A stretch of 34,346 bases of DNA from Chlamydiota bacterium (GTDB taxonomy: Bacteria > Auribacterota > Tritonobacteria > UBA1439), in assembly GCA_012729785.1 (NCBI GenBank), contig JAAYCL010000024.1, forward strand, positions 1 to 34,346. The letters run 5' to 3'. This document shows, in pieces, positions 1 through 33,172 of the stretch. Made by a program: the position numbers and the translations under genes. The notes beneath the pieces were generated by a model. It saw only the letters and a list, made by a program, of their open reading frames with translations. It had not been told where the DNA came from and searched no databases. How positions within the stretch are numbered: position 1 is the stretch's first letter; the number at the start of each line of letters is the position of its first letter.

Positions 1-267
1 GCCTCAACCCCGATGGAACGCTCAAATGGCGGCTCGGGACGGGGGAGGACGTACGATCCTCCCCCGCGCTGGAAAGCGACGGCGCCGTGTACTTCGGTTC
101 CTATGACAACAGGATGTATATGCGCCTGCCTACGGGTTCCTGGTGGTCATACGTGACGGGGGACGACATCTTCTCCTCGCCCGCGCTGGGGATCGACGGC
201 GCCGTGTACTTCGGCTCTCAAGACAACCATCTCTATTGCCTCAACCCCGATGGAACGCTCAAATGGC
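1..267 (+). repeat. 30-bp perfect direct repeat inside the propeller gene
   Basis: Bases 1-30 and 238-267 are identical and both encode LNPDGTLKW in frame. They are 237 bp apart, which is two blades (79 codons). Identity at synonymous positions suggests a recent blade duplication or gene conversion. Confidence 0.85.
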
Positions 268-1091
268 AGTTCGGGTCGGGGGGTAAAATAGCTTCCTCCC
301 CCGCGCTGGGGACCGACGGCGCCGTATACTTCGGTTCTTACTCCGGCTATCTGTACTCGCTCAACGCGTCGAATGGGTCTTTCAGGTGGTCGTTCACATC
401 ATACACTGTCGAATCCCCTCCTGCCCTGGGGAGCAACGGCCTGGTGTATTTCGGATCAACCGATCGCCGGCTCTATGCGGTCACGGTTGAATGCGGACTG
501 GCCTGGAGCTACGAGACCGGAACAAACATCTATTCGTCCCCGGCAGTGGGCGGCGACAGGAGGATATACGTGGCCTCGTATGACTCGAAATTATACTGCA
601 TCGGACAGGAGCCGGCCGCCACCGCGACGCCCACGCCGACGCCGGGCGGTCCGACGCCGACGCCCGGGGGGCCGACGCCGACGCCCGGGGGGCCGACGCC
701 GACGCCGGGCGGGCCGATGCCGATCGTCCTCGCGCCGCAGAAGACGGAGTACGAGACCTCCGACACGATCTCCGTCTACGCGGACGTGTGGCCGTTCTCG
801 ACGCCGTGCTACCCGTTCGTGCGCGTCAACATGGCGGACGGGCGGACACTCTACTACCAGCGCAACGTCGGGTTCTCGGCCTCGCCGGTGCCGTACCTGG
901 GGTTCGAGGCGGGGCCGCTGACGGTGTCGTCACCGATACTCGGGTACTTTGCGATCTTCCAGGCGTTCTCGAACATCCCCACGGGCACGTACGTGCTGGA
1001 GGGCGGGACGGTGGACGCGACGCGGACGACCTCGGCGTCGAACCTGATATACTTCGGCACGGTGGACCGCTGGACGCTGACGGCGCGTTGA
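3..1091 (+). CDS. PQQ-like beta-propeller protein with Thr-Pro linker and C-terminal module (5' partial)
   Basis: The frame is open from the window edge, so the N-terminus and any signal peptide lie outside. The visible part starts with tandem propeller blades of 39-40 residues; the motif DGAVYFGS recurs with its Asp codon at 78, 195 and 315, and later blades are more diverged (GLVYFGSTDRRLYAV). Blades of this kind (PQQ-like/WD-like) usually form an extracellular or periplasmic beta-propeller. Next comes a low-complexity linker built from PTPTPGG units (about 625-715), then a C-terminal module of about 120 residues starting at PIVLAPQKTEYE. That module has counterparts of the motifs YPFVRV, GTYxLEGG and the final IGSVHR-type strand seen in the cysteine protease at 31832-33172. 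The protein is probably exported and surface-associated. No enzymatic residues are recognisable, and quinone binding is not implied. Confidence 0.85.
   Translation, partial: LNPDGTLKWRLGTGEDVRSSPALESDGAVYFGSYDNRMYMRLPTGSWWSYVTGDDIFSSPALGIDGAVYFGSQDNHLYCLNPDGTLKWQFGSGGKIASSPALGTDGAVYFGSYSGYLYSLNASNGSFRWSFTSYTVESPPALGSNGLVYFGSTDRRLYAVTVECGLAWSYETGTNIYSSPAVGGDRRIYVASYDSKLYCIGQEPAATATPTPTPGGPTPTPGGPTPTPGGPTPTPGGPMPIVLAPQKTEYETSDTISVYADVWPFSTPCYPFVRVNMADGRTLYYQRNVGFSASPVPYLGFEAGPLTVSSPILGYFAIFQAFSNIPTGTYVLEGGTVDATRTTSASNLIYFGTVDRWTLTAR
625..716 (+). repeat. in-frame 21-bp minisatellite encoding the PTPTPGG linker
   Basis: About four near-identical 21-bp units give a Thr-Pro-Gly-Gly linker between propeller and C-terminal module. 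It is coding sequence, not a CRISPR array or intergenic repeat. Such linkers are common in multidomain exported proteins. Confidence 0.85.
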
Positions 1092-1291: not shown

Positions 1292-2446
1292 ATGATCAAC
1301 GTCACGAAGCTCGTCTGCGGCGGCGATTTCGCGGGCGACGCGCTGCGCTACGGTCGCGCCGCCGGCGCCGCGCCCGTGGTCGCGTGGAACTGCACGGAGG
1401 CGTGCAACCTCGCCTGCCTCCACTGCTACAGCGAGGCGAAGGGGCGGCGCGCAGACGACGAGCTCGCGACCGCCGAGGCGCGGGCGATGATCGAGGATCT
1501 CGCGGCGTACGGCGTCCCCGTCCTCCTCTTCTCCGGCGGCGAGCCGCTCCTCAGGCCCGACCTGCGCGCGCTCTCCTCGTTCGCCGTCTCCAAGGGGCTC
1601 AGGACGGTCCTCTCCACGAACGGCACCGCCATCGGGGAGGGGGAGGCCGCGGCCCTGAAGAGGGCCGGCTTCTCGTACGTCGGGATCAGCTTCGACGGCG
1701 TCGGGGAGGCGCACGACGCCTTTCGCGGCGTCAAGGGGGCGTTCGACAGGGCGGCCGCGGGGATGCGCCGCTGCCGGGATGCGGGGCTCAGGACGGGCGT
1801 GAGGTTCACGCTCTCCCGGCGAACGCTCCCGTCGCTCGAGCCGGTCATCGACTTCGCGCGCTCCTCCGGCGCGACCCGCCTCTGCGTCTACCACCTCGTG
1901 CCGTGCGGCCGCGGGGAGGGGATGGGGGAGGAGATCCTCCACCCCGGCGAGGCGCGGGAGGCGATGGACCTCCTCGTCCGGGCGGCGCGCGAGGCGCGCA
2001 GTTTGGATCCGTCGTTCGAGCTTTTGACCGTGGACAACCACGCCGACGGGGTCTACCTGTATCTCCGCCTGCGCGCGGAGGACCCGGCGCGCGCGGAGGC
2101 GGCGCGCGCGCTCCTTCTGCGCGCGGGCGGCAACCGCTCGGGCGTCGGCATCGCCTGCGTCGACGCGGCGGGGAACGTCTTCCCCGACCAGTTCAGCCGG
2201 ACGCTGCGCGCGGGGAACGTGCGGGAGCGGCCGTTTTCCGAGATCTGGCGCGGCGGCGGCGAACTGCTCCGGCAACTGAGGGACCGCGCGGGGCTCCTCG
2301 AGGGGCGGTGCGGGCGCTGCGGGTGGAAGGGGTTCTGCAACGGGAATATGCGCGCCCGCGCGCTCGCCGTGCACGGCCGCCTCTGGGCCGAGGACCCCGC
2401 CTGCTACCTGGCTGAGGAGGAGCTGCACGCGCAAGGGCGTGCCTGA
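1292..2446 (+). CDS. ahbC: radical SAM/SPASM protein, 12,18-didecarboxysiroheme deacetylase (AhbC)
   Basis: Predicted to remove two acetate side chains from 12,18-didecarboxysiroheme, giving Fe-coproporphyrin III, in the siroheme-dependent heme pathway in the cytoplasm. The N-terminal stretch KLVCGGDFAGDALRYGR, immediately before the radical SAM core, resembles what I recall of AhbC and is the reason for AhbC rather than AhbD or NirJ. The SAM cluster cysteines are C38, C42 and C45 (CNLACLHC), followed by FSGGEPLLRPDL. The SPASM-type C-terminus has C289, C340, C343, C349 and C371 for auxiliary iron-sulfur binding. Its length of 384 aa fits the family. The start is fixed by the conserved N-terminus although no ribosome-binding site precedes it. 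The stop overlaps the next ATG (TGATG), indicating translational coupling to ahbD. NirJ (heme d1) is the main alternative, but the neighbours favour heme. Confidence 0.82.
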   Translation: MINVTKLVCGGDFAGDALRYGRAAGAAPVVAWNCTEACNLACLHCYSEAKGRRADDELATAEARAMIEDLAAYGVPVLLFSGGEPLLRPDLRALSSFAVSKGLRTVLSTNGTAIGEGEAAALKRAGFSYVGISFDGVGEAHDAFRGVKGAFDRAAAGMRRCRDAGLRTGVRFTLSRRTLPSLEPVIDFARSSGATRLCVYHLVPCGRGEGMGEEILHPGEAREAMDLLVRAAREARSLDPSFELLTVDNHADGVYLYLRLRAEDPARAEAARALLLRAGGNRSGVGIACVDAAGNVFPDQFSRTLRAGNVRERPFSEIWRGGGELLRQLRDRAGLLEGRCGRCGWKGFCNGNMRARALAVHGRLWAEDPACYLAEEELHAQGRA

Positions 2447-3552
2447 TGCGTCGCGCTCCCCCTCCGAGTCGACGCTCGTCTGCAGGTGAACCGGTCGCGC
2501 GCAACGTTTTGGATGGATTCGGGATGGAAGATCGGCTGAGGGTGCTTTTCTGGGAGACGACGGCGGCGTGCAACCTCGCCTGCCGGCACTGCCGGCGCGG
2601 CGAGGCGCGCCTGTCCGCCGCGCCCGGGGAACTCTCGACCGCGGAAGCGCGGGCGCTCATCGGCGAGGTCGCGTCGTGGGCGCGGCCGCTCCTCGTTTTG
2701 AGCGGCGGCGAGCCGCTGACGCGCCCCGACATCGTCGAACTGGCCGCCTTCGCGTCGGCGCGCGGCCTCCCCGTGGCGCTCGCCACGAACGGCACGATGG
2801 TCGAGCCGGGCGTCGCGGCGGCGCTGAAGAAGGCGGGCGTGAGGCGGGCGAGCGTGAGCCTCGACGGCGCCGGCGCCGAAACGCACGACCGGGTGCGGGG
2901 GGTCGAGGGCGCGTTCGAGGCGGCGCTGCGGGGGCTGCGGACGCTCAAGGCCGCCGGGCTGGGCACGCAGGTGAACATGACGGTCTGCCGCGGGAACCGC
3001 GCGGATATCCCGGGCGTCTTCCGGCTCGCCGCGCACGAGGGGGCCGACGCGGTCCACCTGTTCGTCCTTGTGCCCGTGGGCTGCGGCCTCGAACTCGCGA
3101 GAGACGAGGCGCTCGGCCGCGGCGAGGGGCACGAGCTCTTCAGCTGGTTCCACGCCCGCGCCGGCTCGTACGGTCTCGAGGCGCGGCTCACCTGCGCGCC
3201 GCAATACGCCCGCTTCGCCGCCGAGCGCGGTCCCGCCGGTCCGCCTTCCACAACCGGCGGGAGCGCCGCGGGGAGCGGGTGCCTCTGCGGCCGGAGCGTC
3301 GTCTTCGTGTCGCACACCGGCGAAATCTTCCCCTGCGGCTACCTGCCCGTATCGGCGGGCTCTGTCCGGCTCGCGGGGCTCGGGGAGATCTGGGACAAGT
3401 CAACAGTCCTCCGTTCCCTGCGCGATCCGTCGAGACTCGGGGCGCCCTGCAAGGCGTGCGCGTACCGCGAAATCTGCGGCGGGTGCCGCGCGCGGGCCTA
3501 CGCCGGGAGCGGGGAGATGCTGGCGGGGGAGGCCGGGTGCACGCCGGGGTGA
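2446..3552 (+). CDS. ahbD: radical SAM/SPASM heme synthase (AhbD)
   Basis: Predicted to convert Fe-coproporphyrin III to heme b by oxidative decarboxylation of two propionates, the last step of the siroheme route. The SAM cluster motif CNLACRHC supplies C42, C46 and C49, and LSGGEPLTRPDI follows at about residue 86. The C-terminal half carries the AhbD-like SPASM signature: FPCGYLPV (C297), then CKACAYREICGGCRARAY, and a final segment like the AhbD ending GDYLAEEP. The start at 2446 overlaps the ahbC stop by one base, with AAGGG nine bases upstream. A second in-frame ATG at 2524, just before RLRVLFWE, would remove an Arg/Pro/Ser-rich N-terminus and is possible. The downstream gene encodes the decarboxylase that starts this branch, so the three genes form one pathway. 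Confidence 0.82.
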   Translation: MRRAPPPSRRSSAGEPVARNVLDGFGMEDRLRVLFWETTAACNLACRHCRRGEARLSAAPGELSTAEARALIGEVASWARPLLVLSGGEPLTRPDIVELAAFASARGLPVALATNGTMVEPGVAAALKKAGVRRASVSLDGAGAETHDRVRGVEGAFEAALRGLRTLKAAGLGTQVNMTVCRGNRADIPGVFRLAAHEGADAVHLFVLVPVGCGLELARDEALGRGEGHELFSWFHARAGSYGLEARLTCAPQYARFAAERGPAGPPSTTGGSAAGSGCLCGRSVVFVSHTGEIFPCGYLPVSAGSVRLAGLGEIWDKSTVLRSLRDPSRLGAPCKACAYREICGGCRARAYAGSGEMLAGEAGCTPG

Positions 3553-12493: not shown

Positions 12494-14143
12494 TCAGTTC
12501 CGGCCGGGGACGTTCAGCGCGCCCTCGCGACCGTCCTGCCGGGGCGGCTGATGATCGTCCGCGCGTCGGCCGGCGCCCCGCGCGGCAGCCCCGCGAGGCC
12601 CGCCGCCCGCCGTGCGCTCGACCGCGACGAGACGCCGCGCGGCGAACCGTTTCGCGGAGACCGGGCTGTGCGCGCGGATATGGTCGCGCAGCATATCGCG
12701 CGCGATGATGCCGGTGTCGGTGAGGGCGCTCCCTTCCGCGACCAGGTCCCGGATGAATCCCCACTTCACGAGGTAGGTGTTGAGCGCCACGAGGTAGACC
12801 TCCTCGTCGTCCAGGGGCGTTTCGCCGCAGGCGGCCGCAGATAGCCGCGCGTTGCGGGGGGCGGACGGGTCGTAGTCGACCGTGAGACCCGAGAACCTGA
12901 GGTTGTCGGGCCGGCGGAATGAGAGGACCCTCTCCAGTATCCCCCGGACCTGCTTCCCGGTGAGGCGGACGGTCCAGAGCGTGTCGTCGAACGGGATGAT
13001 CGCGTAGACGTCGCGGTACCTGATCTCCCCCTCGAGCAGGGGGCCGCGGATGCCGTGCCGCTGGTTGAAGGCGATCTGCGCCCCGGTCGCCTCCCGCATC
13101 CCGTCGGCGATCATCTCGCCGAGCATCGCGACCCCCTCCCGATTCTTCAGGAAATCGGACTCAGACCAGCCGACGATCTCGTCGAAGCGATTCCCCGCCC
13201 TCGCACGCCACCTGTCCACGCGCGCCTCCATCGCGGCGTCGGGGGCGCACCGATTCTCCGTGAGGGGGATGAGCGCGTAGTCGTACCGTGCCACCCGCTT
13301 CGACCGAGGATCCAGCGTCAGATCGAGCTTCCCGAGGTATCTGCCGTAGCTTCCCGGTTGGAGGATGAGCGTGCCGTGCTCGGGCGAGCGGAACGGCTCA
13401 CGCAGCGCCAGGTGCGAATGACCGCCGAGGATCAGGTCGACGCCTTCGACCTTTCGGGCTAACCGCTTGTCCCCGTTCAGCCCGAGATGGCTCAGGACGA
13501 TTACGAGGCCGGCGCGGTCGCGCCGCAGCGCGTCGACGGAGTTCCCGAGCTGTTCCTCCGGCTCCAGGCAGACGATGCTCGCGGCCGTCCCGGGTATCGG
13601 CATCGGCGTCGAATCCTCCAGCGTGACCCCCGCCACGCCCACCCGCACGGCGCCGCAGTCCTTGACGATGTGCGGCCGGAGAAAGGCGGGCGTCTGCCCC
13701 GTCTCCCGCACGATCACATTTGCCCCGAGGAACGGGAACGCGGCCCGCTCCGCGAGCCCGCGCAGGCGCGCAACGCCCCCGTCCCAGTCGTGGTTTCCGA
13801 CGGCGAGGGCGTCGTAGCCCAGCGCGTTCATCACCTCGACGAGGGCCTGTCCCCCCGAGGAGTCCCCCTCCGGCGTCCCCATGTAGAAGTCCCCCGCGTC
13901 GAGGAGGAGGGTGGGGATTCCCCTGCGGGCGTTCTCCTCCCTGATCTTCTTCACGCAGCCGGCTAAAACCGCCGCTCCGCCGATCCGATGCCTCTCGCCG
14001 GCGACCCTCTGGGGGAGGATGTGGCCGTGGATGTCGCTTGTGTGGAGGATGCAGAGGGACGGAGGCGGGGCGGGCTCGACGAGGCGGCAGCCGGCGCAGA
14101 GGGCTATCGCGAAGAGAAGCAGGAGGCGAACGGGCCGTTTCAT
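12494..14143 (-). CDS. 5'-nucleotidase/2',3'-cyclic phosphodiesterase family lipoprotein (UshA-like)
   Basis: A 549-aa metallophosphoesterase anchored by a lipobox (signal MKRPVRLLLLFAIALCAG, Cys19). The metal ligands are complete: D37 and H39 (DIHGH), D85 (GDFYMGTPEG), N117-H118 (GNHDW), H219 (SHLGLNGD) and H242/H244 (GGHSH). The second half (from about residue 325) is the 5'-nucleotidase C-terminal substrate-binding domain, with FNQRHGIRGPLLEGEIRY and IIPFDDTLWTVRLTGKQV. Such enzymes hydrolyse extracytoplasmic nucleotides or UDP-sugars for phosphate and nucleoside salvage. The last ~30 residues are Gly/Ala/Arg-rich and probably disordered. It is convergent with the hydrolase gene (88-bp gap). 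A GC-rich inverted repeat overlaps its stop codon but lacks a T-run. Confidence 0.88.
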   Translation of the reverse strand: MKRPVRLLLLFAIALCAGCRLVEPAPPPSLCILHTSDIHGHILPQRVAGERHRIGGAAVLAGCVKKIREENARRGIPTLLLDAGDFYMGTPEGDSSGGQALVEVMNALGYDALAVGNHDWDGGVARLRGLAERAAFPFLGANVIVRETGQTPAFLRPHIVKDCGAVRVGVAGVTLEDSTPMPIPGTAASIVCLEPEEQLGNSVDALRRDRAGLVIVLSHLGLNGDKRLARKVEGVDLILGGHSHLALREPFRSPEHGTLILQPGSYGRYLGKLDLTLDPRSKRVARYDYALIPLTENRCAPDAAMEARVDRWRARAGNRFDEIVGWSESDFLKNREGVAMLGEMIADGMREATGAQIAFNQRHGIRGPLLEGEIRYRDVYAIIPFDDTLWTVRLTGKQVRGILERVLSFRRPDNLRFSGLTVDYDPSAPRNARLSAAACGETPLDDEEVYLVALNTYLVKWGFIRDLVAEGSALTDTGIIARDMLRDHIRAHSPVSAKRFAARRLVAVERTAGGGPRGAAARGAGRRADDHQPPRQDGREGALNVPGRN

Positions 14144-27117: not shown

Positions 27118-27228
27118 ACGGCCCCAGGGTGGCGCCTCGACCGTGCCCCGTTGCTCCCTGCCCGTTGAACGATCCAGCCGCGATGCCCCTCTTCGCACCA
27201 ACGCGCCGCCTGAAATTCGCCTGCCATG

Positions 27229-27257
27229 TGGACAGCGCTATGGATCGGTGATACACT
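27229..27257 (+). promoter_or_regulatory. sigma70-type promoter with extended -10, subtilase gene
   Basis: TGGACA (27229-27234), a 17-bp spacer, and TACACT (27252-27257) preceded by TGA, giving a TGn extended -10. The predicted leader to the ATG at 27307 is about 43 nt and includes AGGAAGGGGG. Confidence 0.6.
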
Positions 27258-27306
27258 CGTCATTTTAATACCTTTTGCCACGTTGCCAGCGCAGAGGAAG
27301 GGGGGA

Positions 27307-30300
27307 ATGATGCGGAGAGCGGCGATCCTGTCGGGCGCGGCGGTTAGTACCTTCCTTCTGGTCTTTGCCTTCGCCTGCGAGGCGCGGGCGGCGGAGGCGG
27401 GAACCAAGGTGCTCGTGCCGGCGGACGGACCCGCCGCCCTGGAAGCGGCGCGCCAGGGGTGGACGTGCATCGCGAGGCGGGGGGCGTACGATGTGTATCT
27501 CGTGCCCCCGGCGCGCCTGAACGCCTTCTCCTCCATCGAGGGCGTCCAGGCGAGGCCCGACTTCGACCAGATCCTCCTGCATCGCGGGCCGATCGACACC
27601 AAGAGCGCGGCGCCCGCCGCCGCATCCCCGCCTTCGGCGGGAGGGCGTTTGATGCTGGTGCAGTTCTCCGCGCCGCCGACCGACGCCGATCTCGAGCTTC
27701 TGGCGGGACAGGGGGCGCGCGTCGTCCAGTACATCCCCGAGAACGCCTACCTGGTCTGGGGAGACGACGCGGCCGGTGTCGCGCTGCGAAACGCGGCGGG
27801 CACCGGAGGCGCGGTCCAGTTCCTCGGCGACTACCATCCGCACTACGCCCTCTCCCCGCGTCTCGACGCGGCGTCGCGGGATGATGCCCCGGTCGCGGTG
27901 ACCGTCCAGTTCTTCAACTACGGCCCGGGCGCCCTCGCCGACGCCGAACGGCTCGCCGCGGCGGCGGCGGAGCTGATCTCGCCGCCCCGCGAGGCCCTCG
28001 GCGGGAGGTACCTCAACGTCCGCCTCGCCGTGCCCGGCGCCCAGCTCCCCGGGATCGCGGGGCTTCCCGGCGTGGTGTGGGTTGAGCCGTACGTCGCCCC
28101 GACCCTCTCGTGCGAGCGCCAGGACCAGATCGTCGCCGGGAACCTCAACGCCGGCCTGACGCAGCCGTCCGCCCCGGGGTACCTCGCGTGGCTCGCCGGC
28201 CTCGGCTTCCCGACCACGCCGTCGTCGTACCCGATCGTGGACATCGTGGACGACGGCTTCGATAACGGCAGCGCCTCGAGCCCCGCGAACAGCGAGTTCA
28301 GGGAGCTGAACAGCGGCGCGCAGCCGTCCCGCGTGCAGTACGCGAATATCGCCTCCGGGGCGAGCGGCATATCTTCGCCCAACGCCGTCGCGGGGCACGG
28401 CAACATCAACTGCTCGATCGTCGGCGGCTACAACGACGGGGCCGGGACGCCCGCGAACGAGGACTCCGCCGGCTACAACTACGGCCTCGGCGTCTCGCCG
28501 TACGGGCGGATCGCCTCGACCAAGATCTTCACCGACGGCGGCGCCTGGGGGTACCCGACCGAGTCGACGATGGTGAACGCCCAGTTCGCCGCGGGGACGA
28601 GGATCAGCAGCAACTCGTGGGGGGCGTCCACCTCCGGGGACTACGACACCGACTGTCAGGCGTACGACGGGTGGACGCGGGACGCGCAAAGCGGCACCGC
28701 CGGACACCAGCAGATGCTCTTCGTCTTCGCCGCGGGGAACGACGGGCCCTCCTCCTCGACCGTCGGGAGTCCCGGCACGGCGAAGAACGTGCTCTGCGTC
28801 GGGGCGAGCGAGAACTACAACGCGATCGGGACGGACGGCTGCGGCGTCACCGACACGTCGGCGAACAGCGCCCAGGACATCGTCGGCTTCTCCAGCCGGG
28901 GGCCCTGCGGCGACAGCAGGGTCAAGCCGGACATCGTCGCGCCCGGCTCGCACATCATGGGGGCGGCGTCGTACGATCCTGCGTACGACGGGACGGGGGT
29001 GTGCACCCAGTACAGCCCCTCGGGGCAGACCAAGTACGCCGAATCGTCCGGCACCAGCCACTCAACCCCCGCCCTCGCCGGGTGCGCCTCGCTCGTCTAC
29101 AATTTCCTCGGGCGCGTCCACTCGATCGGCGCGCCGAGCCCGGCGCTCCTCAAGGGCTACCTGCTGCACGCCGGGCGCCACCTGACCGGCGTCTCCGCCG
29201 GCGACAACCTCCCGAGCAACAGCCAGGGGTACGGGCTCGTCGACCTCGGCCTCGCGTTCAGCGAGGCGGCGCCGCGCGTGATGGTGGACCAGACGGTGGT
29301 GTTCGGCGACCCCGGCCAGACGCATTCGGTGAACGGGACGATCGCCGCGGCCGCCGAACCGTTCCGCGTCGCCCTCGTCTGGACGGACCCCCCCGGCGCG
29401 ACCTCCGGCAACGCCTACGTCAACAACCTCGATCTCCAGGTGACGATCGACGGCGTCCTCTACCGCGGCAACAATTTCAGCCTGGGATCCTCGGTTTCCG
29501 GCGGGAGCGCGGACGTGCGCAACAACGCGGAGTGCGTCTTCCTCCCCGCGGGGACGACGGGGAACGTCACCGTCACGGTCGTGGCGACTGGCCTGGGCGG
29601 AGACGGCGTCCCGGGGAACGCCGACGCCACCGACCAGGATTTCGCCCTCGTGGTCTACAATCTCGCCGTCGGCCCGACGCCCACCCCGACGCACACCCCC
29701 ACCGGCCCCACGCCGACGCCCACGCAAACCCCGACGCCCACGCCCCCCCCGTCGGTCATATGGTACGAGGATTTCAGCGACTCCAACGACGGCGACACGA
29801 GCCGGGCGGGATGGTGGACGGCGAGCGGGTATCCGTGGGGCCACTGGTGCGTGCAGACCGTCTCGGGCAACCGGCACTTCTCGGGCAACCGGCTCGCGAA
29901 CACCTGCCTCTGGACCAGCGCAACGATCGACCTACACCTGTACGCCGATATCTCGATCTCCGTCGACATCGCGGAGACCGGCACGATGATCGGCGACGAT
30001 TACATCGCGGGCTTCTACGAGATCGACGGGGGCTCCCCGACGCTCTTCTTCGTCCAGTACGACGACTGCGGCGCCGCGTGGATCAACCGGTCGATCACGG
30101 GGTTGAACGGCGATACGCTGGTGATCTATCTCCAGGCCCTCACGACGGATGCCGACAAGACGTGGCGGTTCGACAACGTCAGTGTGAGCGGCACCCTGAC
30201 CGGCCCGACGCCCACCCCGACGTCGACCCCCACCGGTTCCACGCCGACGCCCACCCTTACCCCCACGTTTACGCCCACGATCACCCCCACGGCGATGCCG

Positions 30301-31365
30301 ACATGGGCGTACCTGTCGAATCCCAGCTTCGAGGACGACGCGAACCTGCTCCCCTGGACCAAGGTCGGGACGGCCTCCATGATCGTCCGGTCCGCCGCCG
30401 TGGCATGCCACGGCTCGTACTCGTGCAGATTCACTGACCCGACCGGCGTGTACGACGGCCGCGGTATCCGCTCCAATCTTTTTGCCGTCACCGCGGGGAA
30501 ACAGTACAACTTCTCAGGGTCCTTCTACGTCGCCTACGCCGCCGGGGCCATCGGCGACACCAGGATGCGCCTCCGGGTCGAATGGAGGGACGCAGCCCAG
30601 GGGATCATCTCGCTGTACCCGGGGACGACCGGCTGGAGCAACTCGGCGTTCAACGTCTGGGAGACGAAATCGTATGCGTCGGTCACCGCGCCGGAAAACG
30701 CCGCGTACGCCGACCTGCTGATCGACTGCAAGGAGGACGTGAGCAACGCGAACTCCGTCTACGTCGACTGCGTGGCGTTCGACGAGGTGCCGGGGACGCC
30801 GACCCCGACCCCGTCTCCGACCCAAACGGAAACCCCCACGCCGGGCCCCACGCCGTGCGCCGAGGCGCTCACGATCGGAAACATCACGAACCTGGAGATC
30901 GCGACGACGCGGTCGAGCACGGACGGCGGGTGGTTCTTCTACTTCGGCCTGGCGAGTACACCGGGAGTCTATCCTGATTGTTTCGGCATCGTGAATGACA
31001 ACAGCAATGATTTCACGGACGGGGGCATCTACACGCCGCAGCCGGTGGGTCTGTGGGTGGGGCGCGATTCGGAGGACATCGCAATCGAGGCGGGAGACTA
31101 TGTGACGGTGACATATGATGGTGGGCAGACGAAGAACGTATATCTGCCTCAGATAACAGGCGGGGATGATCGGAACCTGTACATCGGGTCGGACGGGTCG
31201 ACGTACTGGGACAGGGATCTGTGCGATCTCGCCCAATCGTCCCCGATCGAGGCGTTGATTCAAATCAACTACCAGCCGGCCGGGGAATCGGTGTCGCCCG
31301 TCTTCCCCTATGTCGACAGCGGCGCCCCGTACAGCGGCCACGGCTGGGCCCACTGGGGCTGGTGA
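27307..31365 (+). CDS. secreted multidomain subtilisin-like serine protease (S8)
   Basis: A 1352-aa exported protease. Signal peptide: MMRRAAILSG then AAVSTFLLVFAFACEARA. An N-terminal prodomain-like region (about 25-270) precedes the S8 domain, with Asp315 (IVDDGFD), His364 (AGHGN) and Ser584 (GTSHSTP). A beta-sandwich follows (about 655-790, VALVWTDPPGA...NNLDLQVTIDG), as in Kp43-type subtilases. Three Thr-Pro linkers (near 29671-29750, 30205-30300 and 30793-30855) separate two jelly-roll modules: WYEDFSDSNDGD onward, and NPSFEDDANLLPWTK onward, the latter CBM4/9-like. The last ~170 residues (from TIGNITNLEIA) are an unrecognised module, with visibly lower GC from about 30960. The start has a strong ribosome-binding site, so the ATG at 27226 is rejected. 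The role is probably extracellular protein degradation. Confidence 0.92.
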   Translation: MMRRAAILSGAAVSTFLLVFAFACEARAAEAGTKVLVPADGPAALEAARQGWTCIARRGAYDVYLVPPARLNAFSSIEGVQARPDFDQILLHRGPIDTKSAAPAAASPPSAGGRLMLVQFSAPPTDADLELLAGQGARVVQYIPENAYLVWGDDAAGVALRNAAGTGGAVQFLGDYHPHYALSPRLDAASRDDAPVAVTVQFFNYGPGALADAERLAAAAAELISPPREALGGRYLNVRLAVPGAQLPGIAGLPGVVWVEPYVAPTLSCERQDQIVAGNLNAGLTQPSAPGYLAWLAGLGFPTTPSSYPIVDIVDDGFDNGSASSPANSEFRELNSGAQPSRVQYANIASGASGISSPNAVAGHGNINCSIVGGYNDGAGTPANEDSAGYNYGLGVSPYGRIASTKIFTDGGAWGYPTESTMVNAQFAAGTRISSNSWGASTSGDYDTDCQAYDGWTRDAQSGTAGHQQMLFVFAAGNDGPSSSTVGSPGTAKNVLCVGASENYNAIGTDGCGVTDTSANSAQDIVGFSSRGPCGDSRVKPDIVAPGSHIMGAASYDPAYDGTGVCTQYSPSGQTKYAESSGTSHSTPALAGCASLVYNFLGRVHSIGAPSPALLKGYLLHAGRHLTGVSAGDNLPSNSQGYGLVDLGLAFSEAAPRVMVDQTVVFGDPGQTHSVNGTIAAAAEPFRVALVWTDPPGATSGNAYVNNLDLQVTIDGVLYRGNNFSLGSSVSGGSADVRNNAECVFLPAGTTGNVTVTVVATGLGGDGVPGNADATDQDFALVVYNLAVGPTPTPTHTPTGPTPTPTQTPTPTPPPSVIWYEDFSDSNDGDTSRAGWWTASGYPWGHWCVQTVSGNRHFSGNRLANTCLWTSATIDLHLYADISISVDIAETGTMIGDDYIAGFYEIDGGSPTLFFVQYDDCGAAWINRSITGLNGDTLVIYLQALTTDADKTWRFDNVSVSGTLTGPTPTPTSTPTGSTPTPTLTPTFTPTITPTAMPTWAYLSNPSFEDDANLLPWTKVGTASMIVRSAAVACHGSYSCRFTDPTGVYDGRGIRSNLFAVTAGKQYNFSGSFYVAYAAGAIGDTRMRLRVEWRDAAQGIISLYPGTTGWSNSAFNVWETKSYASVTAPENAAYADLLIDCKEDVSNANSVYVDCVAFDEVPGTPTPTPSPTQTETPTPGPTPCAEALTIGNITNLEIATTRSSTDGGWFFYFGLASTPGVYPDCFGIVNDNSNDFTDGGIYTPQPVGLWVGRDSEDIAIEAGDYVTVTYDGGQTKNVYLPQITGGDDRNLYIGSDGSTYWDRDLCDLAQSSPIEALIQINYQPAGESVSPVFPYVDSGAPYSGHGWAHWGW

Positions 31366-31831: not shown

Positions 31832-33172
31832 TCAGTTCAGCGTGAACGGGGTCCGGTGGACCGAGCCGATGTAGTTGTACGCGCCCGACGCCGTCACGGG
31901 CTGGGCCGCGTTCACCCCTCCCCCCTCGAGGTAGTACGTCCCCGGCTTCAAGTGCCACCACTGCAAGCCGCCTAGCCTGAGCCCGTCGATGCCGGTCGTG
32001 GTGATCGGGTACCGGGAGTACGGCATCGGCCCAGCGTAGAGCATCGACCACGCGGTGAGATAGTAGGTGCCGTAGTTCGGCGTCACGACCCTGACGAACG
32101 GGTAGAACGACGTCGAGATGGCGTCCGCGTAGCCCCAGATGTACATCGTGTCGTCCTCGGCGGAGAAGCTCGTCTCGTTCGTGCCGAGGCGCACGGGCGG
32201 ACGCGGCGTGGGCGTGGCGCTGCCGAAACTCACGTTCGCCGTCTGCCACAAGTAGTTGTAGTACGGTTCCGGACTGTGGGTGGACCTGCAGTCGTAGTCG
32301 ATGTCCATACTGAGCCGGAAGAGGCCTTTCGGCCGGAGGCCGCTCGCCGTGCCCCAGCTGTTGAGCAATATCCAGTAGCGGTTCCCCGGTTCGTCGTTGT
32401 ACCCGACGCAGAGGACGGCGTGCCCCAGCCGCTTCGAATCATACTTGTTGCAATAGTCGTCGAAAGTCCATACGGCGGACTCGTTGTTGCTGCTCCACCA
32501 CAAGTCGAAGGCGAGCCAGTCGGCCTGGTTGCTCACGAAGAAGGCGAGGAAGACGGCCTTGTTCTGGTTCAGGACGTTCTTGATGTTGCTGATCGCCGTC
32601 TCATTGCCCACGCCGTGCGTTTCAATCCTGGTTTCCTGGATCGAGACGATCTTGTACGAGGGGGAGGTCGAGACGGAGCCGCACGCCGTGTGGCACGTGC
32701 CGTCGCCGTCCTGCCAGTCCGCGTTCGAGTTGGACCAGGGGATCGCCCTCCCGGTCGCGGTGTAGAAATCCGCGAAATCGGACAGAAACCCCACGTCGCA
32801 GCACGTCTTCCCGATCACGGAGGATTGGCACGAGTTGATGTACTGCACGGAGAGTCGCTTGTAGATGCCCTTCTGCACCGCGAGGGCGACCTCCATAATG
32901 CCGGTCCCGGTCCACGCCCAGCAGTTGCTGCACTTTCCCTGATTCCGCTGCGCCGCGTCGTACGTGAGGTAGCCGAGGACGCTATTCGAGCCCCGCTTCG
33001 GCTTGATCGCGGGGTCGATGTACGCCTTCGGAGCCGACTCGAAGCTCTCGACCCACTGGCGCATCGTGGCGTCGTCCATCACCATCGCCGGGTGCTCGCC
33101 CTGCGCCGCGAGCGGCGCGGCGAGCGCGAGGAGCGCCGCGGTCAGCGCGAGCGATGCGAGGGACCTTTTCAT
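31832..33172 (-). CDS. exported papain-like (C1) cysteine protease with C-terminal module
   Basis: A 446-aa secreted protease. Signal peptide: MKRSLASLALTAALLALAAPLAAQ. A short propeptide-like stretch (25-60) leads to the papain fold: oxyanion Gln78 and nucleophile Cys84 in QGKCSNCWAW (family consensus QGxCGSCWAF), His251 in LGHAVLCVGY and Asn271 in LLNSWG, so the active site is complete. Many further Cys (124, 125, 160, 164) suggest disulfides. A short Thr-Pro linker (TPTPRPP, 320-326) leads to a ~120-residue module (327-446, FYPFVRV, GTYYLEGGGV, NYIGSVHR) equivalent to the C-terminus of the propeller protein at 3-1091. GGAGG precedes the start. A 7-bp hairpin (33184-33200) abuts the ribosome-binding site. 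It is convergent with the subtilase/WYL remnant. Confidence 0.9.
   Translation of the reverse strand: MKRSLASLALTAALLALAAPLAAQGEHPAMVMDDATMRQWVESFESAPKAYIDPAIKPKRGSNSVLGYLTYDAAQRNQGKCSNCWAWTGTGIMEVALAVQKGIYKRLSVQYINSCQSSVIGKTCCDVGFLSDFADFYTATGRAIPWSNSNADWQDGDGTCHTACGSVSTSPSYKIVSIQETRIETHGVGNETAISNIKNVLNQNKAVFLAFFVSNQADWLAFDLWWSSNNESAVWTFDDYCNKYDSKRLGHAVLCVGYNDEPGNRYWILLNSWGTASGLRPKGLFRLSMDIDYDCRSTHSPEPYYNYLWQTANVSFGSATPTPRPPVRLGTNETSFSAEDDTMYIWGYADAISTSFYPFVRVVTPNYGTYYLTAWSMLYAGPMPYSRYPITTTGIDGLRLGGLQWWHLKPGTYYLEGGGVNAAQPVTASGAYNYIGSVHRTPFTLN

Follow-up and report, generated by a model that had tools for sequence, protein, structure and literature searches.

The papers found on lineage-specific C-terminal sorting domains deal mainly with the T9SS and with GlyGly-CTERM. 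The C-terminal domain (CTD) of the T9SS is an Ig-like 3+4 beta-sandwich in which the terminal residues are important (PMC11285876). In the PEP-CTERM/exosortase, LPXTG/sortase, and GlyGly-CTERM/rhombosortase systems, too, many exported proteins of a genome have a C-terminal element in common, which is made up of a short motif, a transmembrane helix, and a basic end. For the T2SS, the determinants of secretion are thought to be structural (PMC7949064).

Two genes of the window, which is the whole 34,346 nucleotide stretch of DNA that was analysed, end in related domains, here called tails. The tail is a homologous C-terminal all-beta module carried by dozens of unrelated, apparently Sec-exported proteins, and it has no name in the databases. 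It resembles the T9SS CTD in its anatomy and putative use and, judged by sequence, is not a member of that family. Common to both are an all-beta sandwich at the C-terminus of many Sec-exported proteins that are otherwise unrelated, cysteine proteases among them, strong expansion within a lineage, and terminal residues that are within the last strand. The differences are that the tail is approximately 120 residues, as opposed to the 72 positions of the T9SS profile, that there is no match between the sequences, that the tail has occasional internal copies, and that TIGR04183 is found in none of the genomes of the bacterial family. Unlike the PEP-CTERM, LPXTG, and GlyGly-CTERM tags, the tail is a folded domain of 120 residues without a helix.

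The T9SS tail profile TIGR04183 has no match in the 7 genomes searched, while the control was matched in Bacteroides, and membership of the T9SS CTD was rejected on the lack of a sequence profile match to the tail. There was also no match to the SprA profile TIGR04189, but this search says little because the control genomes gave no match either. Sortases are absent from all 7 genomes (controls matched in three Gram-positives), and an LPXTG-type signal was rejected for the tail. There is no exosortase in the window's genome, with the control matched, and no hydrophobic helix in the tails, so that PEP-CTERM membership was rejected as well; an exosortase was found in one of six genomes of the family.

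The two tailed genes of the window

The window opens within the gene for an exported beta-propeller protein (3..1091, + strand), of which the 3' part is present and which ends in tail 1. The propeller front is of the BamB/PQQ type, matching Pfam PQQ_2 at 4e-19 (69.6 bits, against a cut-off of 27.6). In the translation, propeller and tail are joined by a Thr-Pro-Gly linker with PTPTPGG repeats (627..713, +), behind which tail 1 (714..1088, +) is a C-terminal beta-sandwich domain of approximately 124 residues by alignment, profiles, and AlphaFold2. In the model of tail 1 the last strand runs up to the stop codon. The translated tail has, in order, YADVWPFSTPCYPFVRV ... PTGTYVLEGGTVDA ... IYFGTVDRWTLTAR and then the stop, with the end of the protein reading ...TPTPGGPMPIVLAPQ...YPFVRV...GTYVLEGGTVDA...VDRWTLTAR before it.

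The propeller gene is cut at the contig start, where there is an 85-base overlap with contig C2 of the same genome, and C2 extends the propeller frame to an N-terminus with the signal peptide MRRVLFIAIAASWALGTAHG. The overlap (window 1-85; end of C2, locus L152) falls within the propeller repeats. Just upstream of the start of the propeller gene there is a decayed copy of the tail (C2:24884-25021), and directly behind the gene are two neighbouring radical SAM genes (window 1292-3552), the second of which has a SPASM domain.

The second tailed gene encodes an exported papain-like cysteine protease (31832..33172, - strand; Pfam Peptidase_C1, PF00112, 1.4e-18, which exceeds the cut-off). From its translation the protease appears to be intact, with signal peptide, papain domain, linker, and tail all present. 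The predicted Sec-type signal peptide MKRSLASLALTAALLALAAPLAA (33104..33172, -) was identified in the translation with a home-made heuristic and is followed by the papain family catalytic domain at residues 76-298 (32279..32947, -; Pfam), with the catalytic Cys, His, and Asn motifs CSNCWAW, GHAVLCVGY, and NSWG. A short Thr-Pro linker, TPTPRP(P) (32201..32218, -), then leads to tail 2 (31835..32200, -), which is approximately 122 residues long, ends at the stop codon, and belongs to the same domain family as tail 1 according to alignment, profiles, and AlphaFold2. Here the order is YADAISTSFYPFVRV ... KPGTYYLEGGGVNA ... YNYIGSVHRTPFTLN and then the stop, and the protein ends ...TPTPRPPVRLGTN...YPFVRV...GTYYLEGGGVNA...VHRTPFTLN.

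Aligned locally, the two tails score 113, compared with 31.7 +/- 6.2 for shuffled sequences (best shuffle 66; n=2000), or approximately 13 SD over the shuffles, and when the whole propeller protein is compared with the whole protease by BLASTP, the tail region is the sole significant match (33% identity over 130 columns, E 2e-8). The shuffle score and the BLASTP result indicate homology of the tails, and a chance likeness is ruled out by these together with the recovery of further copies across the genome. An earlier sequence-only reading of the window had aligned the ends of the products of 3-1091 and 31832-33172 by eye, and all of the motifs that it listed are present in the translations. 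Its tail coordinates agree to within 1-2 codons with those found here (714/717-1088; 31835-32200), and the Thr-Pro linker that it described ahead of each tail is there, long in the propeller protein and short in the protease. It had regarded the lack of a profile relation as evidence against kinship of the tails; instead, a profile of tail 1 and tail 2 recovers at least 12 more tails from the window's genome, of which eight have E 1e-22 to 1e-44.

AlphaFold2 models both tails as all-beta sandwiches, with pLDDT 95.3 and pTM 0.88 for tail 1 and pLDDT 97.1 and pTM 0.88 for tail 2. Neither model has a Foldseek match in the PDB at E <= 1e-3, and there is no significant match among predicted viral proteins. 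The nearest neighbours of tail 1 include alpha2-macroglobulin MG, CARDB, and the Wzt C-terminal domain, while the best eight PDB matches of tail 2 are all crystal forms of RbmA (E 3e-3 to 1e-2). RbmA is a secreted, FnIII-type scaffold of the biofilm matrix of Vibrio cholerae, and the likeness of tail 2 to it is a weak hint. The best neighbours, alpha2-macroglobulin (2p9r), the CARDB domain of PF1109 (3idu), and RbmA (4kkp), are all-beta sandwiches like the tail, but with E > 1e-3, TM-scores of approximately 0.4-0.6, and no Pfam match over threshold for the tail, its sequence family is distinct from CARDB, macroglobulin MG, and FnIII/Ig-like domains, and the predicted likenesses are only leads on the class of fold. 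The T9SS CTD is absent among the 50 Foldseek matches listed for the tail models.

The sequence-only reading did not recognise the tail as a named family, which bears out: when 87 tails were compared with Pfam and NCBIfam, no family matched at a meaningful E. The Pfam matches that occur are weak and scattered over one or two members each, the best relevant ones being MG2 (E 0.28), Big_13 (0.11), and Y_Y_Y (0.15). Known Pfam beta-sandwiches (PPC, CARDB, Big, MG2, Y_Y_Y) were rejected as identities of the tail, with no match over the gathering score. No relative of the tail is present among PDB sequences.

Copies, position, and fronts of the tail

A profile of 15 tail sequences finds 15 strong copies in the window's genome (2.59 Mb). 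The broad profile, from an 87-sequence alignment built from tails of the bacterial family, yields 57 copies there with a cut-off of E <= 1e-3, or 59 with one of E <= 0.01, and 42, 26, 94, 80, and 43 copies in five other genomes of that family; the tail sequences diverge to approximately 10-20% identity. With the same profile, 38 further genomes of the phylum gave one single marginal match (6.9e-4, in one genome), and the class's single other genome contains no tails. Two peptide patterns of the narrow subfamily, in a scan of approximately 85,000 species' genomes that is sensitive to close relatives only, matched just two assemblies, both of the window genome's family, and tblastn of the tail in plasmids gave no match. 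These sequence searches show the tail to be restricted to the bacterial family inside its phylum, and only suggest as much beyond it.

Tailed genes are frequent at contig ends (C31, C4, C13, C32, C38, C20), as if repeats break the assembly. A 149-residue frame on contig C38 (L117, 1637-2083) consists of a tail only, almost identical to that of the propeller gene that comes next, and is probably a partial duplicate.

The position of the tail was counted over 57 distinct domains in fetched loci of the window's genome, with a few near-identical copies merged and a few remnants included. The stop is no more than 30 residues after the domain in 54 of the 55 closed frames and no more than 6 residues after it in 44 of these, with the last strand often of the form [LF]-x-[VI]-x-stop, and no protein with two copies was seen in this genome. 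In the one exception, L121, the domain comes straight after the signal peptide and 133 residues follow it, and in L145, which is open at the contig end, the domain is likewise directly behind the signal peptide. In the relatives, 57 of 66 domains are within 30 residues of the end, the other nine being in six proteins and some of them in internal tandem (internal or tandem copies: L093, L081, L082, L084). A strict C-terminal position is therefore usual, not universal.

By a simple home-made rule, 46 of the 57 tailed proteins of the window's genome have a signal peptide; the other 11 comprise truncated frames, remnants, a single frame-shifted frame, and proteins in which a plausible signal can be read by eye. 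With this heuristic and the reading by eye, almost all tailed proteins apparently start with a Sec-type signal peptide. A 30-residue stretch rich in Pro and Thr (>=40%) precedes the tail in 20 of 51 cases, compared with 1 of 49 control stretches further upstream, and a TP/PT repeat is found ahead of the tail in 25 of 51. Pro/Thr linkers are enriched ahead of tails and are no rule. The sequence-only reading had proposed to test whether matches are always C-terminal, behind Pro/Thr linkers, and on exported proteins, and had regarded mainly internal matches as speaking against a module. The C-terminal position and the exported proteins are supported, and the matches are mainly C-terminal both here and in the relatives; a constant Pro/Thr linker is ruled out, since linkers precede only 40-50% of tails.

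That different front domains share one tail, as had also been proposed, is borne out by Pfam searches with the front parts. The 49 fronts searched include 11 BamB/PQQ propellers, three subtilases, three papain proteases, and two DUF7901 proteins, along with TIG/CarboxypepD_reg/PEGA proteins and single cases of GH64, GDSL esterase, beta-lactamase, metallophosphatase, Kelch, beta-helix, and BKACE-type fronts. The BKACE-type protein starts with an apparent lipoprotein signal.

On a tree of 120 tails there are 29 changes of front group, where the minimum is 14 and the shuffled mean 54, a count that is a guide rather than a measurement, given few columns for the size of the tree and a front group (F0) joined partly via linkers and accessory domains. 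This would mean that a tail is mostly passed on along with its front, but that swaps have happened repeatedly. The papain-type fronts of the window's genome carry tails from at least two strongly separated clades, the tail 2 clade and the one containing L135 and L139, each with an SH-aLRT of 100%, and one tail subfamily occurs on unrelated fronts.

The envelope and the putative role of the tail

Omp85 is encoded in the window's genome, which therefore indicates an outer membrane. There is a T2SS operon on contig C31, with GspD, GspE, and GspG identified by Pfam next to pseudopilin-like genes, and a PilM-PilN-PilO-secretin operon, in which PilO and the secretin were identified by Pfam and PilM and PilN from their sequences and their order. 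Five genomes of the family (L157, L159, L160, L161, L164) encode at least one tailed protein directly after the secretin of the PilMNO operon, several of these having beta-helix, TIG, or CarboxypepD_reg fronts. This adjacency is one inherited arrangement and, with approximately 57 tailed genes, could be coincidence.

There appears to be an even chance that the tail is a shared C-terminal localisation or retention domain of exported proteins, much as the sequence-only reading had suggested with its surface-retention or sorting domain. It would be a mobile C-terminal all-beta domain (Ig/FnIII/macroglobulin-like) that has greatly expanded in one family of an uncultured diderm phylum. The tailed proteins would cross the inner membrane by Sec, as their heuristically assigned signal peptides suggest, and fold in the periplasm, and may then pass the outer membrane via the general T2SS or the PilQ-type secretin, both of which are present. 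Through one common partner bound by the tail, many enzymes and propellers that are unrelated to one another would be kept on the cell surface or within the extracellular matrix. Neither cleavage nor a covalent anchor is proposed, because the window's genome has no sortase, exosortase, or T9SS tail family.

Surface or matrix retention is preferred because the tail looks non-catalytic, is single-copy and terminal, and is common to enzymes and propellers, and because it is missing from other exported proteins of the window and is tolerated internally in relatives. The window's subtilase (27226-31365) and 5'-nucleotidase (12494-14143) are exported without a tail, and therefore the tail is not required for export. 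The internal copies fit a retention domain and do not easily fit an obligatory C-terminal secretion signal, a candidate that is weakened by these copies in the relatives and by the N-terminal copies here. With approximately 55 proteins of a 2.6 Mb genome carrying it, and up to 94 copies in a relative, the tail marks a large part of the secretome of the lineage, so that a common destination of these proteins becomes a testable question and the tail profile a means to list the exported proteins of an uncultured group. If the tail is a sorting tag, it would be a convergent counterpart of the T9SS CTD, and if it does bind the matrix or surface, this would point to a shared extracellular structure.

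The internal, tandem, and signal-adjacent copies do count against a localisation role and are what a general accessory domain would show. The tail may, as a possible if doubtful alternative, be a generic accessory beta-sandwich (like PPC, CARDB, Big, or the macroglobulin type) that is structural or binds ligands differing by subfamily, with no common localisation role. The fold is indeed a common beta-sandwich and the tails have diverged widely, but the C-terminal position in 54 of 55 frames, with a single copy per protein, is unusual for a free binding module, and the presence of one tail subfamily on unrelated fronts also argues against it.

It is unlikely that an undescribed pathway for outer membrane secretion or surface attachment, evolved in this lineage independently of the T9SS, uses the tail as its address tag by reading a folded C-terminal beta-sandwich on dozens of unrelated Sec-exported cargoes.

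The encoded T2SS and PilMNO-secretin operons, the tailed proteins directly behind the secretin in five genomes, and the view that T2SS determinants are structural (PMC7949064) would suit recognition of the folded tail by a secretin system, which would make the tail a T2SS signal of this lineage that is recognisable in sequence. This is decidedly improbable: the adjacency, as a single inherited arrangement, is not very unlikely by chance, the outgroup genome G006 has secretins and zero tails, bacteria with a T2SS generally need no such tail, and internal copies exist. A dedicated outer membrane machine for secretion or attachment that reads the tail, as a functional analogue of the system reading the T9SS CTD, is very improbable, since no such machine was found, TIGR04183 is absent while its control matched, and there are internal tail copies, even though Sec signals and a C-terminal beta-sandwich on diverse cargo, the extreme lineage-specific expansion, and a last strand ending at the stop recall the T9SS CTDs, which are likewise C-terminal Ig-like sandwiches in which terminal residues matter (PMC11285876).

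The subtilase at 27226-31365, which has Thr-Pro linkers, carries another module at its end, NITNLEIATTRSS...STYWDRDLCDLAQ, and in two further proteins of the genome (L136, L137) this module is found ahead of the tail. In the subtilase the module is followed by INYQPAGESVSPVFPYVDSG... and a double stop instead of a tail, which would suggest that this gene is perhaps truncated.
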